Positions 148 through 5,329 of a stretch of 5,329 nucleotides of DNA are shown here, one piece after another. This stretch comes from Bryobacteraceae bacterium (GTDB lineage: Bacteria > Acidobacteriota > Terriglobia > Bryobacterales > Bryobacteraceae), in the NCBI GenBank assembly GCA_014379815.1, contig JACMLA010000678.1:1-5329 (forward strand), in the 5' to 3' direction. The notes under the pieces were generated by a model. It searched no databases, was not told the DNA's origin, and saw only the letters and a program-made list of their open reading frames with translations. Each line of letters opens with the position of its first letter. The first letter of the stretch is position 1. Position numbers and translations under genes: made by a program.

Positions 148-921
148 TCAATGCCCAAAGCTGAGCCACGGACGCCCGGCGGGTCCCTCATGCAGCGTTG
201 CTTCGACCGCAAACACATCCCGGATCATCGCTGAATTCAAAACTTCCGCAGGCGGACCAGCGCCCACCAGCTTGCCGGATCGCAGCAGCAGGATGCGATC
301 GGAATACGACACCGCCAGATTGAGATCGTGAGTGACAGTAACAACCAGCAAGCCTTCTTCAGCAAGCGAACGCAGCAGCCGGTAAAGCGAAATCTGGTGC
401 TCGAGGTCGAGATAAGTCGTTGGCTCATCGAGCAGCAGGATCTTTGGCTCCTGCGCGAGCGCCGAGGCTAGCACCAGCCGTTGCCGTTCTCCGCCGCTCA
501 AAGTAGAAAAGTTCCGATCCCGAAATGCCTCGGTTCCCGTCAGCTTCAGAGCACGATCGACTGCGGCCACATCCGCAGCAGACTCAAACATGGAGTCGCC
601 CCAGGGCGTCCTGCCCATCAGCACCAGTTGACCGCCGGTGAAAGGGAACTCCAGCTTGAGACCCTGCGGAACCACAGAAACCAGTCTTGCCAGAGCCGGG
701 CGTTTCCATTCCCGGATCTCCCGTCCTTGCAACCGACAGCTGCCGGAATAACCGGGACGAAGCTTCGCGAGAATGTTCAGCAGAGTCGACTTGCCCGCCC
801 CGTTGGGACCCGCAATCGCCACGAGTTCCCCCGCTTGCAATCGGAGAGAAATATTGCTCAGTGCGGAAGCTCCGTTGTAACTCAGCCCCACATCGGTTAG
901 TTCGTAGAAGTCATCGGTCAC
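148..921 (-). CDS. ABC transporter ATP-binding protein, BtuD/FecE/FhuC type
   Basis: Cytoplasmic ATPase (257 aa, full length for the family) that powers import of cobalamin or an iron-siderophore through the adjacent permease. All nucleotide-binding motifs are intact. They are Walker A GPNGAGKST (residues 38-46), Q-loop VVPQ (Gln86), signature LSGGERQR (141-148), Walker B ILLLDEP (161-167), D-loop YLDL (170-173) and switch His198 in THDLNLA. The HDLNLA wording is typical of the FecE/BtuD/FhuC group. The start is GTG at 921; GGAG (933-930) lies 8 bases upstream. It begins 15 bases after the binding-protein stop, and this spacer contains a short tandem duplication (see the repeat entry). The ATPase precedes the permease, as in some metal-chelate operons. 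The symbol is left blank because cobalamin and siderophore ATPases cannot be separated on sequence alone. Confidence 0.95.
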   Translation of the reverse strand: MTDDFYELTDVGLSYNGASALSNISLRLQAGELVAIAGPNGAGKSTLLNILAKLRPGYSGSCRLQGREIREWKRPALARLVSVVPQGLKLEFPFTGGQLVLMGRTPWGDSMFESAADVAAVDRALKLTGTEAFRDRNFSTLSGGERQRLVLASALAQEPKILLLDEPTTYLDLEHQISLYRLLRSLAEEGLLVVTVTHDLNLAVSYSDRILLLRSGKLVGAGPPAEVLNSAMIRDVFAVEATLHEGPAGRPWLSFGH

Positions 922-952
922 TGGAACAGCTCCACCTCACTGGAACAACTCC
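915..952 (-). repeat. Tandem 19-nt duplication at the binding-protein/ATPase junction
   Basis: Two adjacent copies of GGAG[T/C]TGTTCCAGTGA occur on the minus strand, 952-937 and 933-918. They have period 19 and 15 of 16 bases match; the last three bases of each unit differ (GGT, CCG). The first copy encodes the last residues of the binding protein (ELFQ) and its TGA stop. The second provides the GGAG ribosome binding site and the GTG start of the ATPase. In the second copy the GTGA would be a stop/start overlap, like the other junctions of this operon. A small duplication may therefore have separated two genes that once overlapped. The repeat is seen directly; the history is inferred. Confidence 0.75.
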
Positions 953-1821
953 GGATGCAATAAAGCGGCCAGTCGTCGCGCGCATTCCACAACTCGCGGA
1001 CCCGGCACGACAAATAACTCGCTGGCTACGATGTGGACGCGTTTATTGCGAACCGCCGGAATCGTCGGGTAGCGGCCCCATAGACCAATCTCCGATTGCG
1101 CCTGAGCCGTCGATATTGCGTTCGCATCGGCATGCTCGCCCATGTCGATAATGACTTCGGGGTTCCGGGATACGATCTCTTCCTGGACAACCTTGACGTA
1201 GGGAACGCGTGCGTCCCCAAGGATGTTTTTCCCGCCCGCTGCCGAGATTACTTCATCCAGATACGACAGCGGTCCGACAGCAATCACGCCTTCCAGAGAT
1301 CCGGGGTTGCGGCCTACGACAAACAAGGCCGGGGTCGGTCGGGCATTCCCCAGGCGGCGTTTCACATCCTGCAGCTGCCCCTGAATTTCCGAAGTAAGTC
1401 GCGTCGCCCTGTCCTGCACGCCCGCACTGTCGCCAATCGCCCGAACAGTGGTAAAGATATCGGCAATCCTGTCGAGACGCACATCGAGAGTCTTTAGCCC
1501 AACACCCTCGAACTTGGCAGAGTTTTGAATTGCAGTCTGCTGTACGACCACCAGGTCAGGACGCAAGGAAAGAATGACCTCCATATTCGGAGCCATCCAG
1601 GTCCCAACTTTCGGCAGCTTAGTTACTGACGCCGGATACTTACAATACTGAGTTACTCCAACAACACTGCTCCCAAGTCCCATCGCAAACAAAATCTCTG
1701 TAATTCCGGGAGCTGTCGAGACAATGCGTTTCGGAATGGGCTTGGTTTGCTGCGCGAAAGCCAGCAAAGGTGTAAACGCCAGCAATTGACGGCGGAGCAT
1801 CGTCGACCTTTCCCCACTCAT
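937..1821 (-). CDS. btuF: Periplasmic cobalamin/siderophore-binding protein, BtuF-like
   Basis: Class III (helical-backbone) substrate-binding protein, 294 aa, that would deliver a metal chelate, probably vitamin B12, to the downstream permease and ATPase. An N-terminal signal peptide is visible: MLRRQ, a hydrophobic core LLAFTPLLAF and a probable cut after AFA, with no lipobox Cys, so a soluble periplasmic protein is predicted. The mature N-terminus RIVSTAPGITEILFAMGLG (32-50), VGVTQYCKYP (54-63), GTWMAPNMEVILSLRPDLVVV (73-93) and YLDEVISAAGGKNIL (187-201) follow the BtuF pattern, including Glu81, placed like the BtuF Glu that docks on the permease. The ATG at 1821 overlaps the pyrF stop (ATGA) and has AGGAG (1834-1830) 8 bases upstream. 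An internal ATG at 1800 (Met8) with AAAGG 6 bases upstream would give a tidier signal peptide. A siderophore or other chelate substrate cannot be excluded. No cobalamin riboswitch was recognised in the window. Confidence 0.85.
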   Translation of the reverse strand: MSGERSTMLRRQLLAFTPLLAFAQQTKPIPKRIVSTAPGITEILFAMGLGSSVVGVTQYCKYPASVTKLPKVGTWMAPNMEVILSLRPDLVVVQQTAIQNSAKFEGVGLKTLDVRLDRIADIFTTVRAIGDSAGVQDRATRLTSEIQGQLQDVKRRLGNARPTPALFVVGRNPGSLEGVIAVGPLSYLDEVISAAGGKNILGDARVPYVKVVQEEIVSRNPEVIIDMGEHADANAISTAQAQSEIGLWGRYPTIPAVRNKRVHIVASELFVVPGPRVVECARRLAALLHPELFQ

Positions 1822-2501
1822 CCCGCGATCTCCTCAAGAATCTTTTTGACCTCGCCGCCGGGGTCAGGTGAGTTCGTCACCTGACGTCCAATCACCAGAT
1901 AGCTGGCACCTTCTGCCATAGCTTGTCGTGGCGTTGCTATGCGTTTCTGATCCCCCGGGTCAGCACCTGCGGATCGCACTCCCGGAGTCACCAGAACCAT
2001 ATCCGGCCCTGTGATGTTGCGCACTGCAGCCACCTCCAGCGGGGAGCACACAATCCCTGCGACCCCGGCAGCAACTGCGTTGCGCACCCGAAGCTGCACC
2101 AGATCGTCCACACTTTTCTCGTACCCGTCAGCCAGCAGGTCTGCGTTGTCGAAGCTCGTGAGAACCGTCACACCAAGGATGTGCAACTCGGATCCGGTTC
2201 GCCCCTGCATGGCTGCAAGCATTACCTGTGGAACCGCGTGCACCGTAAGAAAGCGGGCTCCCATGCGGGCAACCTGAGCCACCGCCCTCGTAACGGTCTG
2301 GCCAATGTCATATAGCTTTAGATCGAGGAAGACCTGATTACCCTCAGCTACAAACTCGTTTACCAGTTCGGGCCCGGCTGCCGTGAACAGTTCCAGTCCG
2401 ACTTTGAAGAACCTGACATGGTGGGTTAGCTTCCTGACAATTGCCCGCGCCTGTCCGGCACTCTCCACGTCCAGAGCAATGATCAGGGGGTTATCGTTCA
2501 T
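1818..2501 (-). CDS. pyrF: Orotidine-5'-phosphate decarboxylase
   Basis: Cytoplasmic enzyme that decarboxylates OMP to UMP, the last step of de novo pyrimidine synthesis. The 227-aa product has the usual length of the bacterial short-form enzyme. Active-site features are the beta-strand-1 Asp11 (IIALDV), Lys33 (FKVG) and the catalytic D-x-K-x-x-D set Asp60, Lys62, Asp65 in FLDLKLYDIGQTV. TVHA (86-89), VTPGVR (171-176) and the phosphate-loop IGRQVTNSPDP (204-214) follow. Compared with the common DIPNTV and GRPIT wording, DIGQTV and GRQVT are mild variants that keep the catalytic residues, so the enzyme should be active. The ATG shares its A with the selD stop (TGATG), with a weak AGG 7 bases upstream, which suggests translational coupling. 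Its 3' end overlaps the binding-protein start by four bases. No other pyr gene is in view, so it is a stray pyrimidine gene in a mixed operon. Confidence 0.96.
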   Translation of the reverse strand: MNDNPLIIALDVESAGQARAIVRKLTHHVRFFKVGLELFTAAGPELVNEFVAEGNQVFLDLKLYDIGQTVTRAVAQVARMGARFLTVHAVPQVMLAAMQGRTGSELHILGVTVLTSFDNADLLADGYEKSVDDLVQLRVRNAVAAGVAGIVCSPLEVAAVRNITGPDMVLVTPGVRSAGADPGDQKRIATPRQAMAEGASYLVIGRQVTNSPDPGGEVKKILEEIAG

Positions 2502-3535
2502 CAGAATACCTGACGCGAAACGACGTGAATCGGATTGCCGCCCTTCGGAACAACCCGGCCAATCGGAAAAGCGTCGGGCTGCCGGACCAGCAGTTGACCC
2601 AGATCGCGTTCTGCAATTGCGATCAGCAAACCACCGGAGGTCTGTGGGTCATACATCAGAGCCAGCAGTTCAGCAGCAATTTCACTGTCGACCGAGACGC
2701 TTTCCCGGACAAACTCCTCGTTGTTTCGCTGACCTCCCGGAATTGCTCCAGCTTGCGCGTATTCGAGCGCTCCGGGCAGAAACTGGATCGCCAGTGCCGA
2801 GATCTCCAGCGTGACATCCGAGGCAACCGCGAGTTCCCGGGCGTGCCCAAGTAAGCCGAAACCGGTGACATCCGTGCAGCCTTTTACATCGAGATCTGCG
2901 ATAGCTTCAGCAGACCCGCGATTCAGCCGCAGCATGGACGCAATGGAGGCTTGTACATGCTCGTCACCGGCAAGACCTCGTTTCAGAGCCGTAGCAATTA
3001 CACCGGTGCCGATGGGCTTGGTTAGTACCAGCACGTCTCCGGGACGAGCACCCGCATTCGTCAAAACGCGCTCCGGATGCACGGTTCCTGTGACCGAATA
3101 ACCAAACTTGATCTCTTCATCGTTGATGCTGTGCCCGCCCAGCACCACGCATCCAGCTTCGTGAATCTTATCCGCACCGCCACGGAAAATTGCCTGGAGA
3201 TCCTCAATACTCTCCTTCGCGGGCCATGCACAAATAGACAGCGCCGTGATCGGCGTGCCTCCCATTGCATACACATCACTCAGGGCATTCGCGGCCGCAA
3301 TGGCTCCGAACGTGTACGGATCGTCAACAATCGGCGTAAAAAAGTCTACCGTCTGCACCAGGGCGCACTCCGCCGAAAGCCTGTACACCCCGGCGTCGTC
3401 CGAGGTCTCATAGCCGACCATCACATTCGGGTTGTGCACGCGCGGCATCCCGGCGAGCGCCTGATCCAACACCTTTGGACCGAGTTTAGACGCTCAACCA
3501 GCTGCTTTTACGTGCGCCGTCAGTTTGCGGGACAA
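2501..3535 (-). CDS. selD: Selenide, water dikinase (selenophosphate synthetase), predicted selenoprotein with in-frame UGA
   Basis: Makes selenophosphate from selenide and ATP, the selenium donor for Sec-tRNA synthesis and for tRNA 2-selenouridine. Read from TTG 3535 through an in-frame TGA (3496-3494), the product is 344 aa, close to the 347 of E. coli SelD. The N-terminus is MSRKLTAHVKAAG-U-ASK. Sec14 and Lys17 have the same C/U-x-x-K spacing as catalytic Cys17 and Lys20 of E. coli, and GPKVL follows as ISPKVL does there. Other motifs, numbered with Sec as 14, are YETSDDAGVY (42-51), TVDFFTPIVDDPYTFG (62-77), ANALSDVYAMGGTP (82-95), GGHSI (133-137), TDVTGFGLLGH (220-230) and DPQTSGGLL (295-303). 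A conventional call would start at GTG 3472 (residue 22) and lose the active site. No ATG or GTG lies in frame upstream before the next stop, so TTG is the best start; its Shine-Dalgarno is poor. The gene starts 32 bases after the dioxygenase stop and shares one base with pyrF. Confidence 0.93.
3455..3495 (-). promoter_or_regulatory. Candidate bacterial SECIS hairpin in selD mRNA
   Basis: Immediately at the UGA, GAGCGUCU (3495-3488) pairs with AGGCGCUC (3462-3455) over 8 bp with one U-G wobble; the G and A of the UGA form the base of the stem. The enclosed 25 nt (3487-3463) can pair further: A-U, then C-G and U-G, then C-G and G-U around an apical GUCCAAAGG. This leaves unpaired U residues on the 3' side and GU/GG in the loop, about 13-22 nt after the UGA. 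Bacterial SECIS elements are coding-region hairpins directly 3' of UGA with a G-containing apical loop bound by SelB. The lower stem is clear; the exact apical fold was paired by eye and is uncertain. Confidence 0.65.
3494..3496 (-). other. Predicted selenocysteine codon (UGA) at the SelD catalytic position
   Basis: The TGA lies in frame between GGT (Gly13) and GCG (Ala15). The codons on both sides keep reading as SelD: HVKAAG before and ASKLGPKVLDQAL after. The position aligns with the catalytic Cys/Sec of the family, three residues before the conserved Lys. SelD is known to occur in Cys and Sec forms in bacteria. A nonsense mutation or a base error (TGA for TGT or TGC) would also fit a single site. 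The downstream hairpin favours true recoding. Confidence 0.88.
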
Positions 3536-3567
3536 GACACCAGTGTAGCGGCGCGGCGGCCGTTCTT
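3536..3567 (-). other. 32-nt spacer between the dioxygenase stop and selD start
   Basis: This GC-rich gap holds no recognisable promoter, terminator hairpin with U-run, or good ribosome binding site for selD. The only purine-rich stretch, GAAGAA just after the dioxygenase TAG, is too far from the TTG; GGTG lies about 2 bases before it. Lack of a terminator is consistent with read-through from the dioxygenase gene into selD. Confidence 0.5.
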
Positions 3568-4341
3568 CTAACGCAGAAATCCACTGGCACGTGACATCGG
3601 AGAGCTGATCTCATCGTTGTGCGAATCATCCAGAGCCAGCACCCGGCGCAACTCCGGCCCAAAACCGTTCTGCACATTTTCGGGAATCAAACGCTTCTGG
3701 TACTGCTGCTGCGCAATGTCCCAGCGACAGTAAAATCCGTGCAGAGCCCGCCTCGGATTCGCCGTACGGTTCTCCGTTCCCCCGTGCCACATATGCGCAT
3801 TCATGATCACCACTGTGCCCGCTGGAGCAGTAACTAAGATCTCCTCGGGATGACCGGCTTCCAGATCCGGCAATTCGTCCTGTGGTCTCCGCTGCCAGCG
3901 ATGCGAACCGGGAACAATGCGAAGGGCTCCGTTATCGGCGGTAAACTCGTCCAGCATCCACACCGTGTTGCATACCGAGTAGCCCTGCTCGTCAGGCAGA
4001 AGTCCCATGTCGACATGCAGCGGCTGACGCGACCACGAATCCGGATTTGCCGAGCGTGCGTTCAGACTGGAAAGCTTGTACCGGCTGCCAAGCACCGCTT
4101 CGACATACTCCAGAATCGCAGGAGTTGCAACGATCCGCCCAAACACCTCGCCCTTGGCAACTAAGTTCGCCAGCCTTCGCACGTGCGGCTCCTGCCGGAA
4201 TTCGGAGCCTGCATTCCCGCCTTCCTGTTCGAAGAGTTCTTCCGTGCACCGGGTCAATTCGGCCAGTAAGTCGGCAGACATCCAGCGTTCCAGAACCACG
4301 TAACCCTCGGTATCCAAAAGCTTCCTGTGTTCGGCAAGCAT
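3568..4341 (-). CDS. Phytanoyl-CoA dioxygenase (PhyH) family Fe(II)/2-oxoglutarate oxygenase
   Basis: A 257-aa cytoplasmic non-haem iron oxygenase that would hydroxylate or otherwise oxidise a small molecule with O2 and 2-oxoglutarate; its substrate cannot be inferred. The N-terminal [15 protein letters not shown] (8-22) is the usual PhyH opening. The iron triad is His109-x-Asp111 in PLHVDMG and His186 in [12 protein letters not shown]. Arg197, 11 residues after the distal His in [13 protein letters not shown], is placed to bind the 2-oxoglutarate carboxylate. [14 protein letters not shown] (136-149) and [16 protein letters not shown] (173-188) are typical core strands. The ATG at 4341 has a strong GGAGG (4353-4349) 7 bases upstream. 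It is the first gene of the leftward cluster, divergent from gnd and 32 bases ahead of selD, so it may share a transcript with selD. No signal peptide is seen. Family confidence is high and the specific reaction is unknown. Confidence 0.93.
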
Positions 4342-4390
4342 GACCGGGCCTCCGGGGCAAATATATCCTAAGGTGATACCTCAGGAGCGT
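4342..4390. promoter_or_regulatory. Divergent intergenic region between the dioxygenase gene and gnd
   Basis: These 49 bp separate the two divergent starts, so promoters for both directions must lie here or extend into the flanking coding ends. The centre (4359-4369) is AT-rich (AAATATATCCT) in otherwise GC-rich DNA. Read leftward it gives TATATT/GATATA-like -10 candidates for the dioxygenase operon, without a convincing -35. The dioxygenase Shine-Dalgarno GGAGG is at 4353-4349 (minus strand). The gnd AGGAG is at 4383-4387, only 3 bases from its ATG. Promoter assignment is tentative. Confidence 0.5.
4367..4385. repeat. Inverted repeat CCTAAGGT-GAT-ACCTCAGG upstream of gnd
   Basis: The 8-bp arms (4367-4374 and 4378-4385) are inverted repeats with one mismatch around a 3-bp GAT spacer, and each arm is itself a near-palindrome CCTNAGG. 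The right arm overlaps the AGGAG ribosome binding site of gnd. It could be an operator for a dimeric regulator, or an mRNA hairpin covering the gnd Shine-Dalgarno. The symmetry is seen directly; any function is inferred, and a short repeat like this could arise by chance. Confidence 0.45.

Positions 4391-5329
<939 letters not shown>

Follow-up and report, generated by a model that had tools for sequence, protein, structure and literature searches.

The selD gene of the window (the whole 5,329-nucleotide stretch of DNA analysed here) most probably encodes an ordinary selenocysteine (Sec)-containing selenophosphate synthetase of an acidobacterium close to Bryobacteraceae, and from comparison of sequences we put the probability of this reading at about 0.96. 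A preliminary description of the same DNA had proposed that SelD is itself a selenoprotein, and the proposal is supported by the conservation of the in-frame UGA, by Cys/Sec interchange at this codon, by a SECIS-like hairpin and by the Sec machinery found in relatives. The features of the window are listed in Table 1. An Rfam scan at gathering scores and a tRNA scan of the window gave no match.

Table 1. Coordinates of selD, its predicted recoding elements and the neighbouring genes in the window
Feature	Position	Strand	Remarks
ABC transporter ATPase and periplasmic binding protein genes, heme/B12/siderophore type	148-1821	-	downstream of pyrF
pyrF	1818..2501	-	directly downstream of selD; one-base overlap with selD, TGATG
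selD, selenide water dikinase, UGA read through	2501..3538	-	frame reading; TIGR00476, 375.6 bits
SECIS-like hairpin	3455..3495	-	7-bp upper stem, 3481-3475 paired to 3469-3463; AGGUG as apical loop, 3474-3470
TGA predicted to be read as selenocysteine, catalytic position	3494..3496	-	TGA in 70/80 and Cys codon in 10/80 related loci
Phytanoyl-CoA dioxygenase family gene	3568-4341	-	upstream of selD
6-phosphogluconate dehydrogenase gene	4340-5329	+	divergent; runs off the contig

A plain ORF of 323 aa (3472-2501) starts at GTG 3472-3470 on the minus strand. Reading of the frame confirmed that selD runs on for 21 codons upstream of this GTG, as had been described, and that the upstream frame is open except for one TGA at 3496-3494, which is the only internal TGA of the recoded frame before the stop codon TGA at 2503-2501. 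With TTG 3535-3533 as the start, the protein gains these 21 codons and has 344 aa with Sec at residue 14; with GTG 3538-3536, it has 345 aa with Sec at residue 15. Either may be the true start, and by eye no clear Shine-Dalgarno sequence is seen for selD.

When the TGA is read as U, the translation is RKLTAHVKAAG-U-ASKLGPKVLDQAL, and the TGA sits at the catalytic position of SelD, within KAAG-U-ASKLGPKVL. The earlier assignment of this segment to the SelD active site is borne out by solved SelD chains (3u0o_A, E 3.4e-71; 2yye_A, E 6.6e-65), in which it aligns with AGCGCKISPKVL of 3u0o_A and SSGCAAKVGP of 2yye_A, and the U and K of the window protein align with the C and K of both chains. The Lys three residues after U, also pointed out before, is seen in the translation of the window (G-U-A-S-K), which thus holds both the catalytic Cys/Sec position and the Lys that characterize SelD. 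Besides the solved chains, the suggested alignment with SelD families gave a score of 375.6 bits against TIGR00476, far over the cut-off of 125, placing the recoded protein in the family.

A scan of genome contigs confirmed at least 577 relatives, and the best 80 of these loci were compared at the aligned codon. TGA is found in 70 of them and TGC or TGT in the other 10 (L010, L011, L016, L022, L025, L055, L061, L065, L075 and L079), with no third residue; L036 was counted in the separate frame that holds its N-terminal part. Across the best 80 loci the in-frame UGA is thus retained, with Cys as its sole substitute, which is the pattern of a selenoprotein and argues that the TGA is no sequence error. 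The codons 5' of the UGA are also kept as protein in frame, since KLTAHVKAAG or a close version of it occurs in most Bryobacterales-like loci. In a second sample, 61 genomes from the family of the genome that carries L002, selD was over the cut-off in 52; 43 of these genomes carry a single TGA within the match and 9 carry none. One of these 9 matches is an N-terminally truncated fragment, and another piece from the same genome has a TGA. Among 30 loci fetched from this family, the motif codon is TGA in 25 and Cys in 5. The family set and the 80-locus set overlap, five genomes being common to both: G002, G005, G008, G014 and, for the family search alone, further members of the first set.

The hairpin, which begins within the UGA itself, had received no mention in the preliminary description. 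Folding of the 45-base segment that starts at the UGA gives -19.2 kcal/mol, compared with a shuffle mean of -10.53 (z -3.63; 0 of 200 shuffles as good). According to a figure legend of PMC13188914, a bSECIS element has a loop of 3-9 nt with G among the first two loop positions, an upper stem of 4-16 bp, a spacing of 16-37 nt and an MFE of -7.5 or lower. The hairpin of the window lies inside these limits as that legend gives them, with a 5-nt loop (AGGUG, G second), a stem of 7 bp, a spacing of 19 nt and the energy of -19.2 kcal/mol.

Pairing was counted at six apical pairs across 44 UGA genes of acidobacteria, 41 of them distinct (246 cells). Standard pairs make up 96.3% of these cells, against 12.2-51.6% when the pairs are slid by 1-3 columns. 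Two-sided changes are found in 13 cells versus 4.3 in shuffles (0 of 500 shuffles as high), and 2 pairs show such changes, a number reached by 48 of 500 shuffles. Two rows from Blastocatellia (L047 and L073) fail some of the hairpin pairs. The mean fold z is -2.02 in the UGA genes, 71 counting that of the window, and +0.14 in the 10 Cys genes. Stems of 5 bp or more that comply with the rule for loop and spacing follow the UGA codon in 71 of 71 genes and the Cys codon in 4 of 10, in a count that tried many loop positions and has no shuffle control. The Cys-selD genes L010, L011 and L016 have mostly lost the hairpin pairs, keeping 1-3 of 6.

The search for the Sec machinery covered 30 of the 80 genomes from which the loci come (L001-L028, L036 and L065). 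The Rfam tRNA-Sec model is over the cut-off in 29 of these relatives, some of the matches being tRNA-Ser or others, and ARAGORN bears out tRNA-Sec(UCA) in 26; selB is over the cut-off in 25 and selA in 27. Among the 24 relatives with TGA-selD, tRNA-Sec is found in 21, selB in 20 and selA in 23, with all three in 17 genomes. The 7 relatives that lack at least one match speak against the Sec reading, though the draft genomes are likely incomplete. The 6 Cys-selD relatives contain tRNA-Sec (5), selB (5) and selA (4) as well, indicating that Cys-SelD does not imply loss of the Sec trait there. Moreover, an FdhA-like gene with in-frame UGA exists in at least 13 of the 30 relatives. FdhA-family regions with an inner TGA were taken from 13 genomes, and all 13 fetched regions have U-H-(A/G/S)-(P/A) at the TGA; at least one further listed TGA match, G009:C384, lies outside those. 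Selenouridine synthase (TIGR03167) is over the cut-off in none of the 30 relatives, so these genomes give no sign of selenouridine as a further purpose of SelD. The expectation in the preliminary description of selA, selB, tRNA-Sec and probably further selenoproteins is thus borne out in most of the 30 relatives, and the machinery is presumably encoded in the window's own genome too.

In the proposed mechanism, the hairpin starting within the UGA would direct Sec decoding, and SelB together with Sec-tRNA-Sec(UCA) would decode UGA 3496-3494 as selenocysteine, which would take the place of the Cys found in other SelDs. The enzyme would then turn selenide and ATP into selenophosphate, for SelA. 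Both Sec insertion and catalysis by the SelD of the window are expected rather than observed events.

Alternatively, a mistake in sequencing or assembly might have put TGA in place of TGT or TGC, in which case the enzyme would be a plain Cys-SelD. Such a form is common among relatives (104 of 120 catalogue proteins listed), though the catalogue truncates UGA forms, and the window rests on a single assembled contig. However, an error in one contig does not fit with TGA at the same codon in 70 of the best 80 loci, with the 15 other listed proteins that start downstream of the motif and group with the window (support 84), or with the kept hairpin (z -3.63), and we regard it as very improbable. 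The UGA could also be a true stop, after which a shorter SelD of 315 or 323 aa would start, lacking the catalytic residue. Against this, the codons 5' of the UGA are kept as protein in the frame of the UGA, and the Cys relatives read straight through; the gene calls of the catalogue that start past the UGA (P0002 and 15 others, 120 listed) do agree with a stop, but we give this explanation hardly any credence.

Decoding by a tRNA other than tRNA-Sec, such as a suppressor or an allo-tRNA carrying Ser or Cys, would leave the UGA codon in place without selenocysteine. A hairpin is expected for SelB-dependent decoding, and tRNA-Sec(UCA), selA and selB are present in 26, 27 and 25 of the 30 relatives. 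According to a passage of PMC7609411, tRNA-Sec-like allo-tRNAs do occur in Acidobacteria, and one is found in relative G009, but its anticodon UAU does not read UGA. Decoding of this kind is exceedingly unlikely, and a Sec-containing SelD is the preferred reading of the window.

The tRNA-Sec-like gene of G009 (L107:1501-1586) has an 8-bp acceptor stem and scores 58.5 bits to RF01852. Within the family of G009, 2 of 121 genomes carry it, the copy in the second genome matching at 87%, and it resembles the allo-tRNA(UAU) group described in PMC7609411. For its anticodon, this resemblance and its rarity, we rejected it as an odd UGA decoder, and it has no bearing on the UGA.

The main import of the Sec-containing reading concerns annotation. 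The catalogue entry for the SelD of this contig, P0002, has 315 aa and begins from an ATG after the UGA. The prediction that standard annotation would give a 323-aa protein without the nucleophile is therefore right about the truncation and wrong about the length; the catalogue protein lacks the catalytic residue because the gene caller stops at the UGA. Of 7998 catalogue matches scored, 120 are listed; the motif contains Cys in 104 of these, and the other 16, including P0002, start downstream of it. The other 15 motif-less proteins form one tree branch with the window (support 84), and their genes probably carry UGA as well. The best catalogue relative among the matches listed is P0003, which is 76% identical to the SelD of the window. 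Surveys based on the catalogue would over-count Cys-SelD (104 of the 120 matches listed), whereas reading through the genomes gives TGA in 43 of the 52 selD-bearing genomes of the L002 family.

Sec-SelD is long known and common (PMC1794560 and PMC4561486), and the biology of the window is as expected. In the former, SelD and FdhA are the most widespread bacterial selenoproteins; the latter states that in many cases SelD is itself a selenoprotein, that annotation usually gets selenoprotein genes wrong, and that bSECIS elements were retrieved from genes for Sec-SelD. In a table of PMC12013277, three known selenoprotein genes are given for the acidobacterium Occallatibacter riparius. Among the titles listed for selenocysteine in combination with Acidobacteria, Acidobacteriota or Bryobacter, none was devoted to SelD of this group. 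Compared with Sec-containing bacterial SelD (TIGR00476), the window has the same family, the catalytic-site UGA, the hairpin directly 3', the Lys three residues on and Sec machinery in its relatives, and no difference of substance was found. In contrast, Cys-SelD of related Bryobacterales (such as L010, L011, L016 and P0007) has a Cys codon where the window has TGA, and is about 59-66% identical to the SelD of the window. The window is thus a correct but ordinary case with the usual mis-annotation.

As for the gene neighbourhood, pyrF adjoins selD in 18 of 23 Bryobacterales-like loci (L001-L021, L027 and L036); two of the 23, L018 and L027, break off within selD or close to it. None of the 57 others of the best 80 has pyrF in this place. 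The pairing is independent of Sec, since pyrF also lies beside the Cys-selD of L010, L011 and L016. The ABC transporter genes have no conserved place beside selD in the best 80 of at least 577 loci.

Trees of SelD point to repeated switching between Sec and Cys among the relatives of the window. A FastTree tree of 198 rows (183 labelled) needs 13 Sec/Cys changes. A second, quick tree of 140 rows, built with the active-site residues left out and without L018, L019, L027, L039, L041, near-duplicate Cys proteins and most non-acidobacterial loci, also needs 13, of which 8 for the Cys label are required by its starred branches by themselves. L036 is outside both trees because its in-frame body after the UGA is too short. 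The outgroup rows of the 140-row tree are Sec, which suits repeated Sec-to-Cys loss, and such loss is a simpler reading than reversals from Cys to Sec. According to a passage of PMC1794560, SelD accounts for 20% of detected Sec-to-Cys conversions, and no Cys-to-Sec events were seen in SelD. The wider scenario suggested by the trees, in which SelD of Bryobacteraceae and their kin would have switched many times with the Sec machinery kept, possibly with some changes from Cys to Sec, seems unlikely to us.

Two Cys-SelD genes, L022 (5085-5129) and L025 (2963-3007), keep 5 and 6 of the six hairpin pairs, respectively, and are placed among UGA genes in the 140-row tree. For both reasons, their hairpins look like fossil SECIS elements and are likely left from a recent Sec-to-Cys change. 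Moreover, the Sec-SelD of L138 and the Cys-SelD P0012 are mutual nearest rows of this tree (support 100) with end branches of 0.058 each, a very recent switch that is suited to direct comparison.
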